From the NCBI GenBank assembly GCA_963693305.1, contig OY855906.1:1852501-1916500 (forward strand): a stretch of DNA of 64,000 bases, read 5' to 3'. Of the stretch, positions 4,126 to 41,635 are shown piece after piece. The notes under the pieces were generated by a model. The model had not been told where the DNA came from. It saw nothing but the letters and a program-made list of their open reading frames with translations, and did not search any database. This DNA comes from Meandrina meandrites (taxonomy: Eukaryota > Cnidaria > Anthozoa > Scleractinia > Meandrinidae). The position numbers and the translations under genes were made by a program. The first letter of the stretch is position 1. Every line of letters begins with the position of its first letter.

Positions 4126-5560
4126 CAAAGAATAAAATGTATTTTCCGCCATTTGGAATGAACGATTTACTTAATTTTTATCTTTCCTCCAGGGCATTTT
4201 ATATATTATGCACAATATTTTTAGTTTTCGTAAAAAGTAAACAGTCAGGCTAGCTTTCACTCCTGTTACCTGGGAACAAAAGCAAAAGCGGACGAGCGAT
4301 CGCACTCGCTCGCTTTCGCGTTTGTCAGTCCAAAGCTTCGAAAGCAAAACATTGACTGTACTGCTCGTAGTTTAAATTCTTGGTGGGGGAGCTTAAAGGT
4401 GAACGTGTCATCGTTAGCTAGCAACAGTGTATAGATACAAACGTTCAGCGCTTAATGCGCAATGTTTTTACAACTACAACTAAAATACAATTCCTTTCCC
4501 CGAGAAGTATTGCCAGACCCAACGCAGTCATCTACCTCATTTCAACTGATAACTTTGAAGAAAGCAACAACAGCAGACGATGAGGCAAACACGATAATGA
4601 TACTACAGACTACCAATGCTTCCCTTCTAGCTCACAAAGAATAAAATGTATTTTCCGCCATTTGGAATAAGATGTATTCATACTTTGAAATGAACGATTT
4701 ACTTGATTTTTAAAGCGACAAGTTCACATGCGAGTTAAAAATAGTGAAAATTATATTGTAGAGCCTCATTTGTAGTTTGGAGTTGAAGACGTATTTTGCC
4801 TCCTTGATTTTTATCTTTCCTCCAGGGCATTGTTTTTATATTATGCACAATATTTTAAGTTTTCGTAGACAGTAAACAGTCAGGCTCCCTTTTACTCCTG
4901 TTACGTGGGATTAACAAAAGCGAAAGCGGACAAGCGATTACACTCGCTCGCTTTCGTGTTTGTCATTCCACAGCTTCAAAAGCAAAAGATTGACTGTACT
5001 GCTCGTAGTTTAAATTTTGGGAAGATTGTTGCGGGCTCAAGAGGAGCCCGCAATTTATTTTGCACGCCATATCTCGATTTTGGAGCAAAATTGTTCTGCC
5101 AAAATCGATCGATAAATCCTCGAAACCAATCAGAATTCATTTCCACTCGAACAAGAATAATTTAAAAGATGGCTGCCGCGTTGGCCAGTGTACTCAATTT
5201 TAAACATGAACGTGTCATCGTTAGCCAGGAAACAGTGTGTAGATACAAACGTTCAGCGCTTAATGCGCAATGTTTTGAAATAGCAAGGGACCACAAACAA
5301 CAATGCTGCTAATCAGGAAGCCCCGAGTCCTGGCACCATTACATTTGACTAGCTTCCCTGGCTTAATAAAACACTGATAATGATGGCAGCGAAATTTCTT
5401 ACACCACAGCTAAAATACAATGCCTTTTTCCCAAGAAGGCCCAAAGTAGCCATCTATCTCATTTCAATTGTTAACATTGAAGTAAAAGAAAGCAATAACA
5501 GCAGACGATAAGACAAACACCATAATGATACTACAGACTACCAGTGCTTCCCTTCTAGCT
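4126..5560. repeat. Tandem segmental duplication of the sulfotransferase 3' flank
   Basis: Two diverged copies of the same unit follow each other. AAAGAATAAAATGTATTTTC occurs at about 4129 and 4637. TTTATCTTTCCTCCAGGGCA occurs near 4180 and 4808. ACTCGCTCGCTTTCG occurs near 4304 and 4943. The block ACGTTCAGCGCTTAATGCGC occurs near 4441 and 5250. The second unit continues into the full-length minus-strand sulfotransferase-like gene. The first unit keeps only its last codons, so the first unit looks like a truncated copy of the second. Confidence 0.75.
4542..4636 (-). pseudogene. Truncated sulfotransferase-like 3' end (C-terminal tail only)
   Basis: Read on the minus strand, this stretch encodes about 30 residues ending in a stop. 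They match the last residues of the intact gene at 5464-6201: an ARREALVVCSII-type segment and the hydrophobic tail. The match breaks abruptly near 4634, at the junction of the tandem duplication, so no catalytic part remains. It is best read as a fragment carried along by the segmental duplication, not as a small gene. Confidence 0.7.
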
Positions 5561-6201
5561 CGTTCAAGTTTTTTAGCCATAGTTTTCTTGGTATCAGAAT
5601 GACCAACATTTGCGCGAGGGAACTGAGTAGAAGGAACATCACAGCCCAAAAATTCACACAATGGCTTCCACCCTTCCTTGACGTTGTAAATTAGAAGCTT
5701 CTCTGAAGGAATTACAGCCTGAACTCTTGCGTTGTGATGGCGATATTTCGCTCGATAGAGGGCGCCAGCTTCGGGATTGACGCTTCCACAAATCGCGTGG
5801 TGCATGACAGTAAAATAATGACGCGTTTTTCTCCTCCAAGGTGCGATCTCCAAAAGAACTTTCATGTAGAACGGCAACATGTTTCTTGCCATTCGAAGGT
5901 GCCCTTGCCAGCTCTTCAGCCAAACTTCTTCGGAATCTCGCACTGTTAGAATGACCTTGGCTTCTGGGAAGGCGTTGAAAATCTCCTCGATCCAAAATGC
6001 TGCTGGATGGTCAGTGACTGCGTCAACATCCTTGAAAACCTTTCTAAAGTTAGGGAGGCGGTCAGTTTCGAAACTATCCAACCACTGTTGTAAATTAAAA
6101 TGCTTTGAGGACTGATAGTACACTTCACATCCAAGAACCTCTAACGCTCTCGCTAGAGTACAAGTTCCTGTTTTCATCAAACCTGCACAGATGACCTTCA
6201 T
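5464..6201 (-). CDS. Sulfotransferase-like P-loop protein with C-terminal membrane anchor (copy 1)
   Basis: This is a single-exon gene of 245 residues. The N-terminus has VICAGLMKTGT, where KTGT (residues 10-13) resembles the PAPS 5'-phosphosulfate loop of sulfotransferases. VILTVRDSEEVWLKSW (about 83-98) resembles the 3'-phosphate-binding segment. The overall pattern fits the Sulfotransfer_4 type family found in many animals; substrates are unknown to me. The last 25 residues are hydrophobic, which suggests a tail anchor preceded by a basic stretch (KKLERARREA). The start is supported by the AGTCAGAATGA context, which is shared with the paralogue at 7738-8466. The two genes are divergent with 1.5 kb between them, so an inverted duplication is likely. 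Enzyme activity is inferred and has not been shown. Confidence 0.82.
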   Translation of the reverse strand: MKVICAGLMKTGTCTLARALEVLGCEVYYQSSKHFNLQQWLDSFETDRLPNFRKVFKDVDAVTDHPAAFWIEEIFNAFPEAKVILTVRDSEEVWLKSWQGHLRMARNMLPFYMKVLLEIAPWRRKTRHYFTVMHHAICGSVNPEAGALYRAKYRHHNARVQAVIPSEKLLIYNVKEGWKPLCEFLGCDVPSTQFPRANVGHSDTKKTMAKKLERARREALVVCSIIMVFVLSSAVIAFFYFNVNN

Positions 6202-7737
6202 TCTGACTTTTTGCTGACTGAAAAAGGCTACAGCGTGTTATTTTGTGAGGGTTTGTTCTTCTTGAAGCTTTCATATGATAATCTATAGTATCGTTTGCAT
6301 TGCACTGCCACTTTAAGTGTTTCCGTGGAAGCCATTCTCAAGCGTCTTTTAACCTGAAACGTTGTTAAACAACAAAAATGCAAATAAGATATAAATTCGC
6401 ACTAGCGCTCAAATTTTGTAACAATCGGTAGATTTCATTATTTATGTGTCACTTGTCACAGAAACCTAGAACTTATGAGACCTAGAACTTATCAAACAAT
6501 TCAGGAAAACAAAGAGGCAGCTGTCTTATGATTGGTCCACGTTGCACGCGCGATACATTTTGTCAAACAATCGCAAAAACAAGTGCGAACGACTTGTTGG
6601 ACAAGTGCAAATTTTGTCAAAACGGACAAATCTTCAAAGGGGCCGATGTCCTGCCTCAAGGCAGGGCAAGTCATGACAAGTTGCATCCCAACGCCCCTCG
6701 TAATGCCAGGTAACAATACGTTGTTGATTGGCTATTGTGTTTGGTCTGGATTGTACTAAAAAACAACACTCGAAATTTTTCCGCGATAGGCGGCAAAACA
6801 TGTTTGTGTGCCGAGGTGAGGTCGTGGAAGGATGGTAATACCAGGGTTGGAACAAATGAATGCGGAGGGAACCAGTTTGTGCCGGTAAATGGAGGGGAAA
6901 AGAAATAGTTTACTTGCCCGCAGGTCAGCACAAAAACATCACTACACGGCGCACTTCAAATGCAAATCGTTTTAAAATTTTTCACCGCGTGGACCTGCCT
7001 GATTATTTGATATTTGCACAAGACGACCGTGCCGAGAAATGTACCAGGATGCCAGAAGCACGTGCAGAGCTATTGTAATAATAATTACACCTTTGGTTTT
7101 CTTCAAAATGTCTCTGACTTGTCGCGACAATTTTGTTTTTGTCAAAAATGTTATGACATTTAAAACTTGTCCGCTAGTGCGAATCGGCCCTTATTTCATG
7201 ATTGACACATTTTCCTTTGTTTATTCAACAACCTTTTTGTGGTTTCAGCTTCGGAGAAGCGAAACGTCTTTGTCAACGCTTCTAAACTACATGTAAGCTC
7301 CTTTTGTAAGTAAGTAAGTTACTTTCGGAAAGCCGACGTAATATTAGAGATGTTCCGCATAACCCACTACATATGGTAATTATCCACTGTAGTGGGAAAC
7401 ACCTATTTATGATGCAAATTTGATTGTGGTGTGAAATTTAGAATAGAGGTTTTGCATGGCACGAACAATAGAATATTAGAATAGAATAGACGGAAAAATA
7501 CAGATTCACGAATTATGGAAAAATAAATCTTCATTTACGCTTCACGCAAAGAAAAAATGCCCATTCACGCGTCACGAAAAAAGTATAGGGGACCCTCATA
7601 GACCTCATACACTTGTAAAAAATTCAATAAGAAAGCTGTTTTTGTCATTCATGCCCGTTACCAGAACACATATAAAAGAATTCTTTTTAACAATTCAAAT
7701 TGCTTCGCCATCCGCAGTAAGGCAGTGTAGAGTCAAA
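6202..7737. other. Intergenic region between divergent sulfotransferase-like genes
   Basis: No convincing exon was found here. Both genes start outward from this interval, so it probably contains both promoters. Near 7497-7590 there is a TCACG-rich patch (GATTCACGAATTATGG, CATTCACGCGTCACG) that resembles the repeat families at 10580-10680 and 13263-13669. Short ORFs of 60-86 codons on both strands lack recognisable motifs and overlap each other, so I treat them as chance. Confidence 0.5.
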
Positions 7738-8466
7738 ATGAAGGTCATCTGTGCAGGATTGATGAAAACTGGAACTTCTACTCTAACGAAAGCTTTAGAA
7801 GTTCTTGGATACAACGTGTACCATTATGCCTCCGAGCATTTTAATTTACAAGAATGGCTGGATAGTTTCGAAACTGACCACCTTCCTAACTTTAATGAGA
7901 TCTTCAAAGATGTCGACGCAGTCAACGACCATCCACAAGCATTTTGGTTCGAGGAGATTACGAAAGCCTTCCCAGAAGCCAAGGTCATTCTAACAGTGCG
8001 AGACTCCGAGGAAGCTTGGCTAAAAAGCTGTAAAGAGCACTTTCGAATCGTGAACGAACTGCCGTTCTACATGAAGATTCTATTGGAGATCTCACCTTCG
8101 AGAAGAAAAACGCGGCATTATTTTCACAGCTTGCACAGCGCAATCCATGGGGGCGTCAATCCTGAAGCTGGTGCTCTCTATCGAGCGAAATATCGCCAAC
8201 ACAACGCAAGAGTTCGGGCTGTAATTCCTTCAGAGAAGCTTCTAATTTACAACGTCAAGCAAGGGTGGAAGCCATTGTGTGAATTTTTGGGCTGTGATGT
8301 TCCTTCTACTCAGTTCCCTCGCGCAAATGTTGGTCATTCTGAAACCAAGAATAATGTGACTAAAGAAATTGAACAAGCAAAAAGAGAAGCATCAGTAGCC
8401 TTATTTTTTGTGTTTGCCATATTGTTTCTTTTTGCTGCTTCTCTTCATCTTTATGTTATCGGGTAA
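7738..8466 (+). CDS. Sulfotransferase-like P-loop protein with C-terminal membrane anchor (copy 2)
   Basis: This is a single-exon gene of 242 residues, closely similar to the minus-strand copy along its whole length. The same landmarks appear: VICAGLMKTGT at the N-terminus, VILTVRDSEEAWLKSC in the middle, and a conserved GWKPLCEFLGCDVPSTQFPR block before the end. It also ends in a hydrophobic helix (ALFFVFAILFLFAAS) after a charged segment, so tail anchoring is kept. An in-frame ATG lies 32 codons upstream at 7642. I chose 7738 because it matches the paralogue's start, has an AGTCAAAATGA context, and the upstream 32 codons have no counterpart in copy 1. The role is inferred from family resemblance. 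Confidence 0.85.
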   Translation: MKVICAGLMKTGTSTLTKALEVLGYNVYHYASEHFNLQEWLDSFETDHLPNFNEIFKDVDAVNDHPQAFWFEEITKAFPEAKVILTVRDSEEAWLKSCKEHFRIVNELPFYMKILLEISPSRRKTRHYFHSLHSAIHGGVNPEAGALYRAKYRQHNARVRAVIPSEKLLIYNVKQGWKPLCEFLGCDVPSTQFPRANVGHSETKNNVTKEIEQAKREASVALFFVFAILFLFAASLHLYVIG

Positions 8467-25325: not shown

Positions 25326-28300
25326 CTAGTTATCTGACAGCATAACTGATCTTATTTCTTCTCGAGAGTTGTGCCAGTTCCCCCTTTTCACAGCCTTGAA
25401 GACCACCATAAAAAGATTAGGCAACTTTTTAAAAAAGATCCACTCTTTCAGTAGGTCTTTCTGAAAAACGGTTGGCCGAGCTCGATCAGATACATGAGCG
25501 TACGCATTTCGGATGAATCGTACCAGATGCACACCTGATGACGTGTCATAAGGGCGTCCTCTTGCACTTGACGTCATTTCCACGTATATGGCTGGAAAAA
25601 GGGAATCCCAACTGGGATGGAGCAAGTTTTTCTCGATTTCTAGCTCTACGGGACCAGCCACAGTTTTCCCATAAGTCCCAATTTCGCCTTGATTGGCAAC
25701 TGCACGAATGAAGCGCACTTTTTTGTCACTGGACCAAAATAGAGGATGCTTTAAGACATCTGACGCAGTTGGTCGGTTGTTGCTGTTCGAGCTCAAGCAA
25801 TGTGCAAGCAGGTCCTTTCCTTCATCAGAAATATCCACACTTAGTGTTTTATTACCGGTTGTAATGTTCTTTTCGACCTCATTCCAATCGGCAATTGAAC
25901 GGCGGCCATCACTTGTACAGGTTTCTCCTTCAAATGGGTGACGTCTGTCAGCAAGCATACAATGCATAAGAAGGCCGCAAGCAAATACGTCGGAAGCAAA
26001 TGTGTGTTGCAAGTGTCCAGTTGACAACAGCAGTTCTGGCGCCATCCAACATCTGGAACCAGCATTGGTATGGAGAACACTTGATCCCTGACCATTTCCG
26101 AGTTTTTTGCTGAGCCCGAAGTCAGCAATCTTCAGGCATGGCTTGGGCACACTTGAGTACAGGACATTAGAGGGCTTGAGATCCCGGTGTAAGATGTCAT
26201 TATCGTGGAGATATTCAACCCCTAGCATGACATCGTTGCAGAGGTTAGAAAAGGAATCTTGATAGATTCCCTGCTGCAAAAGATCATCCAGAGTACCATC
26301 CATCAGTTCTAAAACAATCCATGTGAAATCTATGTCTCTAGTGATGCTGATGTACTTGACAATCTGAGGGCAATTTGCCAGCTGGAGAAGACAACTTACT
26401 TCTCGTTCGTCCTGCCGTGTTTGTAACCGTTTTTCAGTTCGTTTCAGAGCGACCTCTCGCCCGTCTTTAACATCAATTGCCGCATACACATTGCCATACA
26501 CACCTGAGCCAATTGGTTCAACATTATAGCAATAGTTCTCAATTTTTCGGCAGTTCTGTCCTCTGGCAGCTGCAGAGAGCGGCCTACGATTTTTTTGCGA
26601 TTGTTGAATCCATGGGAAAATTGGACGTGACTCCAGATGGATCACTTCCGTAGTGAGGGCCTTTAGTAACTTCTTGTCCAGCCTGGCAAGATCCTTCACA
26701 GTATTGCCTCTATTGTTTCTCAAGTTACAGGTTGCTCTATAGGAAAGAAGCTTGGGAATGGCTTTCCATTGCACAGAATTGTGTCCCTTTCTCTTAGGGA
26801 GACGGACTATGCTTTGACAGCTGTTATGGAGGGCAGTGTCACCGTTCGTGTTTTGGGCATTCACGTTAGCACCACTTCGAAGTAGAAGATCAATCAAGGG
26901 TAACACCCTGGAGTCGTTGTAATTACACAAATGATGTAAAAGGCTGTTACCCTTACTGTCGGTTTTGAGAATGGCTTCTCTGTCATTTTTAATGCTTGCG
27001 TCAGTGAAAGGTTTCATATCTTCGAAGCTACCTTTTTCCATTAAAACGTGAAAGACGTTTTGGCCTTCATTGTCTTCCTGCCACAAATCCATCCCCGAGT
27101 TCACACCTTCTGACCATTTCCTAAGCGTTTTCAACGCTGGCATTCTTTCAGGGCTGGCCTCTTTTGCTCTGCACAGAAGCGGAGTACAGCTCATGTCATC
27201 AGGGACGTTAGGATTGGCTCCATGCTCCAAAAGAAATTTAGCCATACTCCACGTTTTAGCTAAGTGCAACGGAGTCTTTCCTTGATCGTTTGTCACTTTC
27301 ACCTTACTTCCAACATCGATTAGTGTGTTCGCAATGGCTAGCATCTCATCGGTGCAAGGAGAGTTATGTTCTGCCAGAAGATGGAGGGGCGTGTTACCCA
27401 TACTGTCTCTTGACCTCACTAACTTATCGTTGTGCTTGGAAACAAACTTTATTTGTTGAATACAATGGGCAACAGCACTTTGAGATAAATTCCGAATCCC
27501 TTCGACTGGATTGGAGTTCGGAAGCTGCTCCAGGTACCTTTTGGTTCGGTCCACGACTAGATGCATCAAGGATGTTCGGTCTTGATTCAATGCACCGATT
27601 TCAGCTCCCGACTGAATAAGCAGTTTCCAGATTTCTAAATTACACCCTTGAGACCACATTTTAGCATTGGTAGCACCATAGAGAAGAGCTGTCTGCCCAT
27701 ATTTGTTTTTAGAATTTGCGCAAGCTTTGTATTCCAGCAGAAGTTTTGAAGACTGGACGTATTCATCTGCTGTTTCGACTGTAGCTTCGGAAACGGCATA
27801 AAACAAGGCTGTGTTACCTTCTTCGTCAGTGGCATGGCTCTTTGCTCCAAGATCCAATAACATCTTTACCAACACAGGGCTCGAGACAGCACACATCAGC
27901 GGAGTCTTACCACCAAGATCTTTGATTGGAATATCCGGCGAAAACTCTGATAAAACCAGAGCCTTGAACATCTCGGAAATGGAGTGTTCCGTCCAACACG
28001 TCTTTTCTTTTAGTTCCCTTGGAGATATTCTTTGCAAAACTTTAGCCACTTCAACAGGAAGAGAGGCCCTGTAAGCAAGGCTGTTTCTTTCTATTAACAT
28101 TTTCACAATCTGCAATGGATCACAGCCAATGGAATGATTTGTGTGATGTGGAACTGAGTCATCAGGGTCTTTTGCCACTAACTGCGAGAGGAACCAGAGA
28201 TACACGGGCATGGCAGGGTCAGCATAATGTTTCGTGGAGCAGTTGTTTCACAATAGGTGCATTGTGAAAATGTATCGCTATTTCTAAAGGTATTGGTCTT

Positions 28301-28541
28301 TTCGAACTCGCTAAGTGGGATTTACGACTAACACTTTTCTCCAGAAGCCGGGTCACAAGGTCTACGTCCCAAATAACTGTGGCTGTATGGAGGAGAGACA
28401 AGCCGTTATAGCTGATGTTAGCTGGAATACCTTCCTGAACTAGTTTTTTATTCAGCAGGGAGCATCTGACACGTCACTGGTAATACACGACACGAGGGCA
28501 CGAGGAGCTCTTTCGCCTCACCCTTCGATATTTTCCTCCAT
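25326..28541 (-). CDS. RNase L-like ankyrin / IRE1-type kinase / KEN ribonuclease protein, copy A (apparent frameshift)
   Basis: The main open frame runs 28211-25326 (961 residues). About ten ankyrin-type repeats (GKTPLMCAV, GNTALFYAV, GNTPLHLLAEHN, GKTPLHLAKTW, GDTALHNSC) fill residues 1 to 540. A kinase follows at about 565-835 with GSGVYGNVYA, VALK (K590), HRDLKPSN (H675, D677) and DFGLSKK (D697). A KEN domain at about 840-961 has RNAYAH (R901, N902, H906), the RNxxxH motif of IRE1 and RNase L. Upstream coding on the same strand continues in another frame (28465-28222: GLSLLHTATV, PLEIAIHFHNAPIVKQLL). A 20-base start exon (ATG at 28541, donor at 28521) and a 56-base intron join it in phase. 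Removing one base near 28223-28226 makes 1,052 residues. The plus-strand paralogue aligns through this point. So this is either a mild pseudogene, an assembly error, or a gene starting at 28211. Confidence 0.85.
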
Positions 28542-33392: not shown

Positions 33393-36300
33393 ATGGCAAC
33401 GAGTAAAACAACGGAGCGGCCTCAACCTTATCGTAACTGCCCAGTTGAATCATGTATCATGGGCAAGAGATTTAAACCGCATTTTCACTGCAATAACTGT
33501 ACATTTGTCGCAACTAAGGTAGGTCTCGATCAAGAGAACAATAATTGAAGTTTCAAAAATTCCCGTCAATGCACGGCAGGGTCAGAATCTGATCGTGGGG
33601 TAGATTCCTCGGCGAGTGTGATTGTGTTGTTAGTGGTGGTGTTATCAGCGATTTTTATACGGACACAGCTGACAGTTAACAACTAAATGTGTGATCGTGA
33701 ATGAGAAAGCTGTAACACAGCTTTGGTCCGAAAGTGTGCTAACTCCTTCTACTCTCCATATGTTACTGTAGGAGAAGAAAATTTCTGAACACATCCGATC
33801 TAAACATGGCGACAATCGCCCATTGCCTAACACATCAGAAGGCTCTATGAAAGAACAACACAACGAGGTATAGTTGTCTCATTCCACTGCAGTTATTGTG
33901 AAAGTATCAGACTAAAAAAATGTTTTGTCCCCTCACGTATATGCATTAACCTTCAGACCCGGGCCCCCTTTCCTTGGTCCGCCAATCAGATTAATGTCGA
34001 TGAAAAAGTGATAATGTTAACTTCCTTCAGTAGCAGCGGTAGCAGCAGTACCAGCAGTGATCACTTACATAAGGCTAATTTATTTCTTGACACTGAGTCA
34101 GTAGAAACTGCAGTTTAGCTATCCTTTCCTAACACGAACAACGTGTCTGATTTTAGGAAAAGGACTCGGCGAAAACTACTGTTGGTGAAGATGCATCTAA
34201 CCCCACAGCGAGAAAAAAGAAGAAGAAGAAGAAGAAAAAGAAAAAGAAGAATGTGCAAGCTATCACTGCAGCGAACGACGATGAATTCAAAGGGCCAGTA
34301 AACAGTAAAACTGGCAATACAGCTGTAGGTGTATTGACGCTCAAACTTACGCCATTCACTTTTCAAACTTTTCTTTTGTTTTCTGCTAGCGGAGAGCGAT
34401 TTCTTTACTCGAGATCACAACTTGCCACTAATAATAATGCGTGCGTTCTGGAATGGATGGAGCCATGCTTGGCAAAAATGGGCTAGCAAAGGTGATCTCA
34501 ATGAGCGTTTTAAAAGTATTCACAGCCTGTTTAGGCGATTTAGGTGTGAAATACGGTAACTGATATATCTTAATACCTGTTTGTATTTGTTCAGCTTCTT
34601 TCAGTCTTCAAGTCTGGTGATATATATGCTGTGTTCATTTTTTTTTTAATTGTAGCATGCCATCGATGAAAGTCACCAAAACAGAACTTTTGAGGAAAAT
34701 ACTCGGACAACAAACAATTCAAGAGACGACGATGAGGCGGAAAGAAACAGTGAGTAAACCTAAAATTAATTTGTTTGGGTTAGTTGGCCAGAACTACGAC
34801 AATGATTTAGTGCTTGCACAAATGTATTAAAAACTCTTAAAATCAAGTCACTGTCGTACCAGTGGCGCGTCAAGATCAGACCTGCTTGCATACAAGAACC
34901 AACAAGACGAACTGTCGTTAAAAGGTTCCCAACGGAACACCCCTCCCTTCAACCCCGATCCGCGTCCGATATCGCAGTCCCGTGCTGATAGCGTGTTGAC
35001 CAATTAATAATATGTCGCAGTGCAGTCTTTCTATTAGTCTAAGACGTTTCTCAGAAGTGCTTTTCCTCTACTTTTAGTGAATGGCGATAACGAAGTGGTC
35101 ACCGACACCGAGGGCGATGTCGAATGGTTTCAACCAGAATCAGGTAAAGAGAATCTGATATCTTCATGCATGATTTTAAGCTGCCGATTTCTTATTGTTA
35201 CGGTTGCGTTAGTAATCTTATTTCTAAAATATTCCACTGTTATTGGGAAAGAACATGACCAAAAATGTTGCACTTGTCTGAAGTATTCCACTGTTATTGA
35301 AAGAGTACCCTACTATTTCAGAAATGCTTTTCCTCTTCTTTTAGTGGACGGCGATGGAGAGGTTGTCACCAACATCGAAGGCGACGCTGATTGGTTTCAA
35401 TCAGAATCAGGTGAGAGTCTTCCATGATATTCATTAAACTACAGATGTCAGTAATAAATTACTGTTGCTCCAGTTGTCTCATTCCACTGCAGTTATTGTG
35501 AAAGTATCAGACTAAAAAAACGTTTTGTCCCCTCACGTATATGCATTAACCTTCAGACCCGGGCCCCCTTTCCTTGGTCCGCCATTGTATACGATATTCC
35601 ATTGCTGTAAGATGAAAAATATATCTTACTTTAATTTCTGCCACAAATTTAAGTCGTGTTTTAGAAGTGGTTATCCTCTGCTTTTAGTAGACGGCGATGA
35701 TGAAGAGGTCACTGACATCAAGAGCCAAGTTGACTGGTTTCATCCGGAATCTGGTAAGAATTTAATTTTATAACTCAATGTACGATATTAAACTCTGATT
35801 CGGCAAGTAGAGTAGTGTTGCTTCAAAACCTTATCTCCAGACTCTGCCACTGCTATTGAAAAAGTATTTGCGTTTTACCTGCCCTTCCGGTCTCCTTCCA
35901 TGGATCCACCATTGCCATATGATTGCGTATGATGCCGGAGTTCTGTGTAATTCCTTATAACATGACGTAGTGTTGTTATGCTTTTAAGTGCCCCTGTGAT
36001 CAAATTTTTGACTTTTTTTTTTTTACATTTTCGTTTACTATTAGACTTTCGTACTTAACTTAATAGTTCTGGCAGAGTTTAATTCTTAGTACCTCATTGT
36101 TGTACAAACCAACCAATTTGGCCCTCAATGTCGGTGACCTCTTCTTCCCTGCCATCCACTAAAAGCAGAGAGATGATCAAACCACTTCTCAAACTAATTA
36201 ATAATTCATTAAGTTAACTTCCAATCACGAGATGTATACCACATCACGTGCATGCATTTGGATGTACTATTTCCAAAACGAGAGCGAGTGTTTCATCGGG

Positions 36301-39300
36301 GTATCCAAACACCGAGAGCAACCGATGAAACACGAGCTCGAGTTTGGAAATAACTTCTCAAATGCAACAATAGGAAATGATGCAGTGACATGTTTTGTCA
36401 AATGAAACAATAAGAACGCGATTGCATACATGATTCATTAGCGTCCCAGCCATGAGCGAGGAAGGAGCGGCGTGGTTTAGGAACCGAAAATGGTTTACGA
36501 GGAAGAGAATTAAGTCAAGAAAGCCGTATTCCCCGTCAACAAGGTATAAAAACAAATACGCGTTAACGTTTTTAAACAATGGCGAAGAACTCGCGTGGAG
36601 AAAAATTTCCCTTCTTTCAGGGGGGCCGTTTAGAGATTACAATTTGCATTAGGTTTCGAAGCGTTCGACTCTCTGAATTGTTGGCAAAGCAAATTTGTCA
36701 TTGAAGTAGAGCAAAAAGAACGAAGAGTTATATCCACCAAAAACAATTTATGTAATAGTATTTAGTATCCGACGGTATCTGTATTTAAGGAATTGTTGTT
36801 AGCACTATTTCGGAATTCATGAGTTGTATTGTTAAAAAATTTCAAGGATGCTACGGACAAATAAATATTCATTGATTTTGTGCAAGTTGTCGATGTGCAT
36901 AATTTAGTGGTATATACCACTCTCACTGGAGATTGGTATACTGTTTTTCATTGGGGTTTCTAAAACACGTCTTACACTTTAAGTGCCCCTGTGCTCAATT
37001 TTATGACATTTATTATTTTACATTTTCGTGTGTTATCAGACTTTGTTACTCATCTTGCCAAATTCATCAGAAGTCATTATATTGCATGTCACTTTTTGAA
37101 TACCGGTCACTTCGGTCATCTATGGCATGTTGTTATGATGGTTTTGAATATATAAAATTATTTTTATATAGCCGCTAGCTGAACTAAAAATTTTGGGCTG
37201 TTTGTATCTTCAATTAGATACTTGTTTTGTGTTTACACAGGAGGTGGAGATGATGACGTGGAGAGTTTCTCATCCCTCTTTGAAGTGGAAAGTGATGAGC
37301 CATTTGATGATGAAAGTTTGTTCGACGAATTCGAAATACCAGGTAGGTTTTAGAACCCTTCAATCGGGGATTGAAATCCCGTACCTGAGAATTGCCTAAG
37401 CCCTCGGTTTTTTATTCGACGAGTTTGCTTAGCGATATGAAACATCTTTGTGGAGTACACGTAATTTCTTGGAGTTAAACCAACTATTCAATTGAAATAT
37501 TTTGATTGCAGACGAACAGGAAGTGGCGCTTTACGCCGATAATCGTGACGAAGTGGTAAGTATTAAAGTAATTTTTTAAAGAAGGGCACAGAGGAATGTC
37601 ACAAGTAGAATCTACAGCAATCGCGATCGGCTGGGAGTCCGAAATGTTTTGGCGGAAAATTTATTCTGATTTAATATGCCCTTCCCTTGCGAAAATACAC
37701 TTCTTTTGAACAAAACGAATTATTTCCTCTAAAATGTTCAGCCAAGACGCATTTCACTGATACAACATCTCTAGAAGAGGTATTCTTCAATGTTGTTTTT
37801 ATTTTTTTTTTAGGAAAACAGTTTTCTTTTCATACTTGACGAACTGTTGCTGGATATCTTAAAAGCCTCCGGTCAACAATCTATGTATGTTAAAAGTATG
37901 GAGAAGTTAGTCTTTCAACGAACAGGCCGCAGTTTTAGCGCTTTGCATGACAACGTCCAAAAAACAGAATTTGGATCACATGGCATTCAGGAGTTCATTG
38001 ATAACGACTCCAAGCTTTTTGGTGTAGACGAACTTTCCGTCGTCCGGACAGGTTTTAATATCTCTCCTTATCATTTTTTAAATGAAGTGCAAGACCCCGT
38101 CGAACTCGATCTTTCGCACACTCGCATCACATCTTGTCGAGATCTCGTTACAAAGTGCTTGCGAGCAAGGAATGTTTCCTCCGCCGTTCTTAGAAAGAAT
38201 TCCATCAGCGACGAAACGATAACGTGGCCCTTTGGAGTGCTGGATCTTCTTTTCTGGTTTTGCCCTAAACTTTGCCAGGTAGATTTAACCGGCTGCGTAG
38301 ATTTGTTTGGTAACAATTTCAACAACGTTAGTAATTATCAATCCAGGATTCAGGTAATTGATTATTTAGATCCTCTGTACATATTAAACTGTACAGATGC
38401 TGGTGAAAAAATACGAGAAATGCTGGATAAGAATTCCATTTCACCTAGTACAAATTGTCATGGTTGGACTCCTCTGCATAGCGCCGTACTGCTTGGAGAC
38501 AGAAAACTGGTAAAAGAGCTGCTTGCATACAAAGAAATTGGCGATGACAATAACAATATCTACAATGGCTTTCTTCAAACCTCGCTGGAGTTGGCCACTG
38601 TACTGCACTGCCGTGAGATTATAGAACTTTTTAGAAATGAATGCAACCTTTCCATAACACCCTCAAGGCTGGTTCAATTGTGTTTGCTGCCAGAAAGTGG
38701 TATAAAAAATTTTGACCACCCCGCGGAAGCTTTAACTTCCAATAAAGATGCATTGCAGAAGGCGAGGAGTTCACACAACACAAAAGATTGCAATCCGATT
38801 GCTCTTCTGCAGATGTTTTATGACAACGACGACATACAGCCGAAGAAGGAACTCCTGGAAGGTCTTTTTCAGAAAGTGCAAGAGTGTACTGCACCAGATT
38901 GTCTTTTAGCTTTTTCCTGCTGGGACGAGAAAGCAATTCATGACGCAGTTCAGATTTTGATGGAAGAAACCGGGTGTTCAGCTAACGGAAAAATCGATGG
39001 CTTTCCATATCTCATGTTCTCCATGCCAAGTGTGCAGATGTTGGAATTTTTAATACAAAAGGGAGCCCAAATTGACGAAAAAGATCGGTTAGGATGCACC
39101 GGGCTTTTCCACGCCGTAGAAAAAACGCTAACTAAGGGCTCAGCTCAGAACTGGAACATCGAGTTCCTGCTCCGCAACAAAGCTAACCCCAATGCTAGAA
39201 ACGACCTAGGCGAGACTCCACTTTTATACAGTTTGTCATCGCAATTTCAATCTTGTGAATTTTGTTCCGCAGTGATGTGTCATGATTCAGTTTCTTCAAC

Positions 39301-41635
39301 TCCCAAGATTGCCTTCGGGGTTCAGATTGTAGAGATCTGGGGTCTTCTTTTGGAAGCTGAGGCAAGAGCAAGCGTCAAAGACGAAAAGGACAGATCACTC
39401 CTTCATTTGCTCTTGAGTTATTTGGAAACCGGAGATTCAGTCCATGAGCGCGAATGTCTTGCCGCGGTTTGCAACGGTCTCCATTTGCTACAGAACTGTG
39501 GATTTAAAATCAACTCTAGAGATGGCGAGGGGAACACTCCATTGCATTTATGGGCAGGCTTATCGCACGAGGCAATCAGTTTTGAAACAATTGAAATTGG
39601 AAAAGAAATTATCTTCCGCGGTGGAGCTGTCAATGCAAGAAACGATAAAGGCGAAACTCCACTTCATCTTTCACAGTGTTGGGAACAAGTGAATATCTTA
39701 GTGGAGAGAGGCGCAAAGGTGAATGTGCACGACCTAAACGGAGATACACCCTTTCATAAATTCATAAACAACGATTCTCTAATAGGTAGAGATGATGTGG
39801 AGGGAGATCGATGGAAGAAATGCCTTGCCTTGGAAATGAATCCTTGGAGCACAAACAATAAAGGCAAGTGCCCATTTGAAGTCCTTTTAGAAAAAGAGTG
39901 TTTTAAAAGCGCGTTTAATCTTCTGAAGGTGATTTTCGAAGACGACCAATACGAAACTCTGGCCAAATCTGCAAGGTGTTATAAAAATCGGAAAGGTGAT
40001 TCACTGCTGCATATTCTATGCATTCTAGAGAGCAAAAATGCCACATTGATCTGTGACTATTTGCTTAATAGAGGATTTGACGTTGACTTTCAAAACGAGT
40101 TTGAGCAAACACCACTACATGTTGTATGCAGCATGGCAGGAAGTGTTGGCTCCTTATTTGATGATAATGTTGCTGCAAATTGTATTTGTCTGCTTCGGAA
40201 GTACGGCGCTGATGTGAACATACCTGATGTTCATGGGCACACATGCACGGCGTTGCTCAGTGGAAATGAGTACCTGCTGAAGCTTCTTGAAGAAGACATC
40301 GAAAAGGTCAACATTCCCAACAAAATAAAGTGGATTAAGCGGTCCTTCAAGCATAATGGTGTTTTGTCCCAAGTTGTGCGTGGTAAGAATTCTCGAAAAG
40401 TTGAAAGTTATTACCACCACGAAAACCCAATCGGAAAAGGTTCATTTTCGTTAGTTTTTCCTGCTGTGAATGAAAAAGACGGCAGAGAAGTAGCTCTGAA
40501 ACGTCTGGAGAAGGCACGATTACAGGAAAAGGGTGTTTCCCTTGAAAGAGAGGTAAAGTGTCTCTTAGAACTGTCTAATTGCCCTTTTGTGGTCAATTAC
40601 ATCTCTTGCACTAGTGATTCCAATTTTGAATACATAGTTGTAGAACTTATGGAAGGCTCTTTAGATTCGTATCTCAGTTGTGATAAAGAATGCGAGCACG
40701 CGTTCACCATCTGTTTAAGTGTCGCCTCTGGCATAGCATTTTTACATAAAAGAGATGTTATCCACAGAGATTTGAAACCACAAAACATCTTGTACAGAAC
40801 ACATCCAAATTTTTCTGTGAAAATTAGCGATTTTGGACTCAGTAAGATCTTACAACCAGCCCAAAACAGTGGTGAAAGTGAGTCAGTAATGCACTCAAAG
40901 GCTGGGACAAGGTGTTGGATGGCCCCTGAACTCTTAGGAAAGAAACCTCAGAAACACAGCAAGGCGTCTGATATGTTCAGCTGCGGTCTCCTTTTCCATT
41001 ACGTCTTGTCGAAGAAGAAGCACCCTTTTTGTTGGTCATCTGGTGAGGCCTCTTTGAAACATCCTCAAGAAACAGAAAAGAACATGAAAAAGAACAAACG
41101 ATGTATATGTCCGTCTCTTTCACCAGAGGCTACCCATCTTATAACACACGCCCTTTTAAGAGAGCCATTGAAACGACCGTCTGCGTCCTCCCTACAGCAT
41201 TTTCCTTTCTTTTGGGATGATCGTAGGAAGGTCGAATTCCTCAACGCAGTGGGAAATCAGAAGGAATTCGAAGAGCCCAGGATTCAACGCAAGCACCGAA
41301 TGACCAATGTAGAAAAGCGGCTAGAAAGCTTTTACTCCAAGAAACGTGCGTGGAAGGCCAATGGTTGGAAAGATAAAATCCAGGAAATATACAACGACGT
41401 CACAAGTGGGTATTCAGGACGACACTACGACACAAAATCTGCTGTTGAATTAGTAAGGTTCATCAGAAATTCGCATACCCATGTCCACAACCTTTCCTCC
41501 AGCAACAAGAAACTTTTGCTGGAAAAGTTTGTTTTTCTTCAGCGCTTTCCGTTTTTGGTGACAGAAACGTATAAGGCAGTGATGGCGTCCGAAGATTGGA
41601 AAACAAGAAAAGACTTGAGGCATTTTTTCAGGTGA
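33393..41635 (+). CDS. RNase L-like ankyrin / IRE1-type kinase / KEN ribonuclease protein, copy B, with N-terminal zinc finger
   Basis: Ten coding exons join in phase: 33393-33518, 33772-33867, 34157-34324, 34656-34749, 35078-35143, 35345-35410, 35688-35753, 37241-37342, 37512-37555 and 37814-41635. They total 4,650 bases and 1,549 residues. A C2H2-type finger (C33, C36, H49, H54) spans exons 1 and 2. Exon 3 encodes a run of about 12 basic residues. Exons 5-7 are three acidic 22-residue repeats. A helical block at about 277-350 is unidentified, and a short LRR-like stretch follows. Ankyrin-type repeats (GWTPLHSAV, GNTPLHLWA, GETPLHLSQ) lead into a kinase with GKGSFSLVF, VALK (K1172), HRDLKPQN (H1260, D1262) and DFGLSKI (D1282). 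The KEN domain has RNSHTH (R1494, H1499). Kinase and KEN resemble IRE1; the ankyrin fusion resembles RNase L. The last exon alone is 3.8 kb. Confidence 0.88.
33875..33986 (+). repeat. Intron segment duplicated at 35472-35585
   Basis: TTGTCTCATTCCACTGCAGT and the next 90 bases (including CCTCACGTATATGCATTAAC and CCGGGCCCCCTTTCCTTGG) recur almost identically in intron 7 of the same gene. The near-identity argues for a recent copy event. Confidence 0.9.
35078..35753 (+). other. Three tandem 66-base acidic exons in copy B
   Basis: Exons 35078-35143, 35345-35410 and 35688-35753 are each exactly 66 bases, phase 1 to phase 1. They encode variants of (V/N)DGDxEVVTDxEGDVxWFxPES. Their acceptor tracts (TTTTCCTCTxCTTTTAG) are also alike. 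This is exon duplication within the gene, and any number of copies keeps the frame. Confidence 0.88.
35472..35585 (+). repeat. Second copy of the duplicated intron segment
   Basis: Nearly identical to 33875-33986 of the same gene. It lies between the second and third acidic exons. Confidence 0.9.
35984..36055 (+). repeat. Intron segment with a diverged copy at 36978-37047
   Basis: TTTAAGTGCCCCTGTGATCA and TTTTACATTTTCGTxTxxTATxAGACTTTxGTAC are shared with 36978-37047. Both are in the intron before exon 8 of copy B. Confidence 0.65.
36103..36160 (-). pseudogene. Orphan inverted copy of the 66-base acidic exon
   Basis: Read on the minus strand, this stretch has CTGCTTTTAG followed by TGGATGGCAGGGAAGAAGAG and then GTCACCGACATTGAGGGCC. 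That matches the acceptor and coding sequence of exon 7 (35688-35753), giving VDGREEEVTDIEG. The copy lies in the next intron in the wrong orientation and loses similarity near its end, so it cannot be used by the plus-strand gene. Confidence 0.75.

Follow-up and report, generated by a model that had tools for sequence, protein, structure and literature searches.

Does a stony coral encode RNase L, or a different protein built from the same domains? The question is raised by a gene in Meandrina meandrites (contig OY855906.1 of assembly GCA_963693305.1), in which a first-pass annotation had recognised a zinc finger and ankyrin repeats together with a kinase and a KEN ribonuclease. Coordinates refer to the window, the whole stretch of 64,000 nucleotides (nt) of this contig that was analysed, and the genome searched for further copies comprised 551 Mb in 56 contigs. 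The gene is intact and conserved, and its product combines an RNase L-like shape with an IRE1-type kinase signature and an unusual front end of nucleic-acid type. By its sequence, it is a member of an ankyrin-kinase-KEN family, the named members of which are anthozoan. We consider it likely that the gene works and that its product is a soluble kinase-ribonuclease whose mode of action combines those of RNase L and IRE1.

Gene structure and domain content

Splicing of the ten exons gives 4650 nt with a single terminal stop and a product of 1549 amino acids, according to a check of splice sites and phases. All nine introns are of the GT-AG type and their phases are mutually consistent, which bears out the phase-consistent ten-exon frame of the first-pass annotation. 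Exon 10 alone is an open frame of 1273 codons, and the residues of its domains are counted from its start. The exons and the domains of exon 10 are as follows.

33393..33518, + strand: exon 1, first finger half (CxxxxC, HFHCxxC) with the start codon; recurs in the C2 paralog and in P0065, both described below
33772..33867, + strand: exon 2, remaining half of the finger (HxxxxH)
34157..34324, + strand: exon 3, lysine-rich tract with an AAG repeat at 34217-34251
34656..34749, + strand: exon 4, linker; aligns to the Oculina protein P0003 DIDESSRNRTFEENTRT
35078..35143, + strand: exon 5, first acidic repeat, 66 nt, phase 1-1
35345..35410, + strand: exon 6, second acidic repeat; 77% identical to exon 5 at the nt level
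35688..35753, + strand: exon 7, third acidic repeat; 71-74% identical to exons 5 and 6 at the nt level
37241..37342, + strand: exon 8, acidic linker
37512..37555, + strand: exon 9, linker; aligns to P0003 EQEVEL...DEV
37814..41635, + strand: exon 10, 1273 amino acids, ankyrin-kinase-KEN; stop codon TGA at 41633-41635
37826..38050, + strand: predicted winged-helix domain, residues 5-79; element order H-E-H-H-H-E-E in the AlphaFold2 model
38102..38359, + strand: leucine-rich-repeat (LRR)-like strand-helix units, residues 97-182, from AlphaFold2; LRR_4 E 0.093 in P0003
38459..40258, + strand: ankyrin-repeat region, residues about 216-815; passes the Pfam curated cut-off, helices in AlphaFold2
40412..41212, + strand: protein kinase domain, residues 867-1133; Pfam E 1.1e-52, catalytic motifs intact
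41231..41593, + strand: KEN ribonuclease domain, residues 1140-1260; PF06479 E 7.4e-11, with Y1205, R1218, N1219 and H1223

The ankyrin repeats, the kinase and the KEN domain with its RNxxxH motif, all named in the first-pass annotation, each score above the Pfam curated cut-offs, with the KEN match at the C-terminal end. The claim that the kinase has all main motifs is likewise correct, as HRD, DFG and APE are intact, and in this the protein departs from RNase L. Every catalytic residue of the kinase and KEN domains that was checked is conserved in at least 117 of 121 proteins, and the motifs suggest a kinase of the active type that is probably active. No strongly hydrophobic stretch occurs anywhere in the protein, the best 19-residue hydropathy being 1.36.

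The acidic exons 5-7 share 71-77% nt identity with one another and are all of phase 1-1, so that each could be skipped with the frame kept. The lysine-rich tract of exon 3 may serve as a nuclear localisation signal or as an RNA-binding stretch. The fold of the N-terminal part of exon 10 was predicted with AlphaFold2 for residues 1-530 from 57 sequences (mean predicted local distance difference test score, pLDDT, 84.7), and a Foldseek search with this model gave only ankyrin-repeat chains among the best 50 of 951 matches. The predicted winged-helix and LRR-like stretch ahead of the ankyrin repeats had been overlooked in the first-pass annotation. Two introns of the gene also contain a stretch of 110 bases that is present twice, at 33877-33986 and 35477-35586, with 108 of the 110 positions identical.

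Homologs and additional copies in the genome

A homolog search yielded 417 matches at E <= 0.001 among 8000 candidates scored. Seven of the best 120 of the 417 matches bear the name of an organism, in each case an anthozoan (Oculina, Acropora, Actinia or Dendronephthya), and the closest named relative in this set is P0003 from Oculina patagonica, with 79% identity over exon-10 residues 700-1273. Uncharacterised anthozoan proteins with the same core include Oculina LOC144658843, Actinia LOC116303744, Dendronephthya LOC114530986 and a protein of Acropora muricata. The relatives differ in their front ends, in that several have extra ankyrin arrays, P0088 has a DED-like domain, and P0065 and the C2 copy have a finger. 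An RNase L-like protein outside vertebrates is not unique to this gene, and a Nematostella homolog of RNase L has already been mentioned in print (PMC8476169). In P0088, the DED-like domain (E 2.5e-08, just under the Pfam cut-off) and a weak TRADD-like match precede the ankyrin-kinase-KEN part, a front end that may hint at a link to cell-death signalling.

The coral genome contains at least four KEN loci, namely the main gene, a paralog in the window, a paralog on contig C2 (the C2 paralog) and a locus with IRE1-like split exons. A separate IRE1 is thereby present in this genome. The C2 paralog (L008 1006-4791 and L009 4015-5110) has a frame of 1262 amino acids with 57% identity over 1245 aligned codons. 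The paralog in the window, which the first-pass annotation had overlooked, is located as follows.

25329..28473, - strand: paralogous ankyrin-kinase-KEN gene, divergent from the main gene and 70% identical to P0093

Its reading frame shifts between 28228 and 28226, its first 150-220 residues were not found, and it is probably degraded, whether through decay of the copy or through an error in the assembly.

The finger and the front end

In the numbering of the spliced protein, the finger reads C33-x2-C36-x12-H49-x4-H54, with an additional C16-x4-C21 ahead of it, and is interrupted by a phase-0 intron between exons 1 and 2. The C2H2 type named in the first-pass annotation fits this spacing (CxxC-x12-HxxxxH, residues 33-54), while a significant match to a Pfam family was not obtained.

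Three lines of evidence argue that the finger front end belongs to the gene. The NCBI model of Oculina patagonica, P0003, can be aligned from residue 50, in the second half of exon 2, onward through the lysine-rich and linker parts and exon 9 into exon 10, with fewer acidic repeats. The same pair of finger exons, again with a phase-0 junction, lies upstream of the C2 paralog, where weak matches to the lysine-rich piece and the acidic VDWFQP piece are also found. Finally, P0065 (1403 amino acids) carries a finger with the x12 spacing, a lysine-rich tract and the ankyrin-kinase-KEN core in one open reading frame (ORF); it derives from a JGI source and a 5.5-kb contig, the size of which is consistent with a spliced transcript.

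Comparison with RNase L and IRE1

The best match in a Foldseek search with the whole model is complete RNase L, while IRE1 is closest in a structural superposition of the kinase-KEN half. IRE1 is also the best match in a sequence search of PDB with the kinase and KEN domains (E 2.5e-36), where no RNase L chain occurs among the best 60 of 2661 matches. A single-sequence search of PDB with the KEN domain gave two chance matches, neither of them IRE1 or RNase L, and a profile search of PDB recovered both, its top match being an ankyrin chain.

The coral protein shares with RNase L (human 4oau and 4oav, pig 4o1o) the N-terminal ankyrin repeats, the kinase fold and a C-terminal KEN domain with the Arg, Asn and His residues. 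RNase L is not known to have counterparts of the finger, lysine-rich, acidic, winged-helix and LRR-like parts of the coral protein, and the description of RNase L in PMC4061530 agrees with this, as does the earlier statement that the finger and the acidic repeats are not part of RNase L. The RNase L kinase is catalytically inactive (PMC4061530) and of the inactive type in human and pig, with HQD, DFD and no Glu of the APE motif, in contrast to HRD, DFG and APE in the coral protein. With IRE1 from human, yeast and the coral itself, the protein shares the active-type kinase motifs and the Tyr, Arg, Asn and His residues of the KEN domain. However, IRE1 has a lumenal sensor and a transmembrane segment, whereas the coral protein has an ankyrin front end and no such hydrophobic segment.

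RNase L is activated by 2',5'-oligoadenylate (2-5A), which is bound by residues of ankyrin repeats 2-4 such as W60, K89, F126 and E131. The pocket comparison was anchor-based and covered only the 11 regular repeats, in an uncertain register. At the place of W60, a Trp occurs in the first of the 11 regular repeats only (17 of 28 members), and at the place of K89, Asp or Asn is commonest at all 11. Within the uncertainty of the register, the residues K89, F126 and E131 do not come together in any triple of these repeats.

Phylogeny of the kinase-KEN region

The phylogeny was inferred from 33 rows, comprising 26 of the 121 proteins, two other copies from the genome, three IRE1 and two RNase L sequences. 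The 28 ankyrin-kinase-KEN rows are placed on one side of a branch with support 99/98, within which the C2 copy pairs with P0065 (99/96). The IRE1 sequences of coral, human and yeast group together (98/94), apart from RNase L and the ankyrin family, and the coral IRE1 pairs with that of human (100/97). RNase L sits on a branch with a length of 3.26 changes per column, for which a warning of long-branch joins was issued by the program.

In approximately unbiased (AU) tests, for which the groups were named after inspection of the tree, three groupings were weakly rejected, namely RNase L joined to animal IRE1 (p 0.037) or to human IRE1 (p 0.021) and the ankyrin family joined to animal IRE1 (p 0.038). 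The ankyrin family joined to the IRE1 of this coral was rejected (p 0.002). The kinase-KEN tree proposed in the first-pass annotation separates the family from IRE1. With two RNase L rows and the 3.26 branch, a shared origin with RNase L is no more than a possibility. We do not call the protein RNase L, given the great length of the RNase L branch and a pocket comparison that did not recognise the 2-5A site.

OAS-like sequences and published reports

A genome-wide search with human OAS1 gave a best E of 0.105, and a 26-kb search of contig C11 gave three ordered OAS-like pieces at about 684808-694774 on the minus strand (E 1.8e-6, 4.6e-4 and 0.25). The best piece reads through stops, perhaps across an intron. 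Another piece, with RGNLELDLAVF where human OAS1 has RGRSDADLVVF, has a Glu at the place of the first catalytic Asp. Pfam OAS1_C gave no match, nor any in 14 controls, and is hence uninformative.

RNaseL is described as absent from lower Metazoa, including Acropora, Nematostella and Orbicella (PMC6307210), while an RNase L homolog and OAS1 are listed among the Nematostella genes detected in the response to poly(I:C) (PMC8476169). OAS1 is named in Nematostella immune cells, with RNase L among vertebrate genes only in the part available (PMC13319465), and the OAS1-RNase L axis is called absent from Aplysia (PMC9334734). Since KEN-kinase fusions with ankyrin repeats, with "CCCH in some", are tabulated in PMC3710099, the core fusion, and even a finger, is not wholly new in print. 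The literature found, as far as accessible, describes no coral protein of finger-ankyrin-kinase-KEN architecture.

Proposed mode of action and possible origins

If the gene works as a soluble cross between RNase L and IRE1, the front end, made up of the finger, the predicted winged helix and the LRR-like and ankyrin units, would recognise a ligand and gather two or more molecules. The kinase halves would then bind ATP and probably phosphorylate each other, as in IRE1 and unlike RNase L, and the KEN domains would pair and cut single-stranded RNA, possibly in defence or stress. Of the first-pass reading as a cytosolic or nuclear sensor-ribonuclease, the architecture, the KEN domain, the lack of a strongly hydrophobic stretch and a finger foreign to RNase L are supported, while a response to 2-5A, binding of nucleic acid by the finger and an antiviral role would be putative at most.

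Several points weigh against this reading or against the finger as part of the gene. The finger is below the Pfam thresholds (best zf_C2H2_ZHX, E 0.048), its spacing in the C2 paralog is x13 rather than x12, exon 1 is not in the P0003 model, and P0065 may be no transcript, although its 5.5-kb contig is consistent with one. A search with the finger region of the window protein found no database relative, and the corresponding search with P0065 found P0065 alone. The winged helix is based on predicted topology and is treated as a prediction because the sequence searches were sub-threshold (E 0.055 for NFRKB_winged, 0.12 for WH_PARP12 and 0.31 for RPA32), and intact catalytic residues would not in themselves prove activity. 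The start of the Oculina model within exon 2 and the lack of relatives of the finger region are also what would be seen if the gene model were an artefact that joins separate finger exons to the ankyrin-kinase-KEN exon; this we regard as very improbable, given the consistent phases and splice signals, the finger exon pair repeated upstream of the C2 paralog, and the finger and KEN domain within one ORF in P0065.

The origin of the gene bears on how far the analogy with RNase L extends. As a true RNase L ortholog, its ankyrin repeats would bind 2-5A made by a coral OAS and thereby switch on the nuclease, in line with the shared domain order, the top full-length fold match, the separation of the three IRE1 rows from RNase L and the ankyrin family, the weak rejection of RNase L with animal IRE1, and the OAS-like pieces ordered on one strand. 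This is unlikely, as the kinase is not a pseudokinase, the pocket residues were not recognised beyond a W60-like Trp, the OAS-like pieces show a Glu for the first catalytic Asp and stops, and the RNase L branch is prone to long-branch joins. An independent, convergent cnidarian fusion of ankyrin repeats to an old IRE1-like kinase-KEN protein, with a ligand other than 2-5A, is a reasonable possibility, though short of probable; the IRE1-type kinase and KEN motifs, the IRE1 matches by sequence and superposition, and P0088 with its DED-like domain in place of the finger speak for it, but the AU tests with coral IRE1 and, weakly, with animal IRE1 argue against a position of the family within animal IRE1. 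We also put forward, as a rather doubtful proposal, that RNase L and the anthozoan family derive from a common ankyrin-kinase-KEN ancestor with an active kinase, and that in RNA decay induced by double-stranded RNA the coral protein would be gated not by 2-5A alone but through its finger and winged-helix front end and by phosphorylation. If so, the RNase L-type effector would be older than the vertebrates.

The conflict between PMC6307210 and PMC8476169 gains a concrete object in an intact ankyrin-kinase-KEN protein with an active-type kinase. It now becomes testable whether the dead kinase of RNase L is a derived state, which ligand is bound by the ankyrin part if, as may be the case, 2-5A is not its signal, and whether regulated decay of RNA is among the antiviral defences of corals.

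Other features of the window

An Rfam search of the window gave no match at gathering scores. Two Sulfotransfer_4 genes, at 5467-6237 on the minus strand and 7480-8463 on the plus strand, face away from each other.
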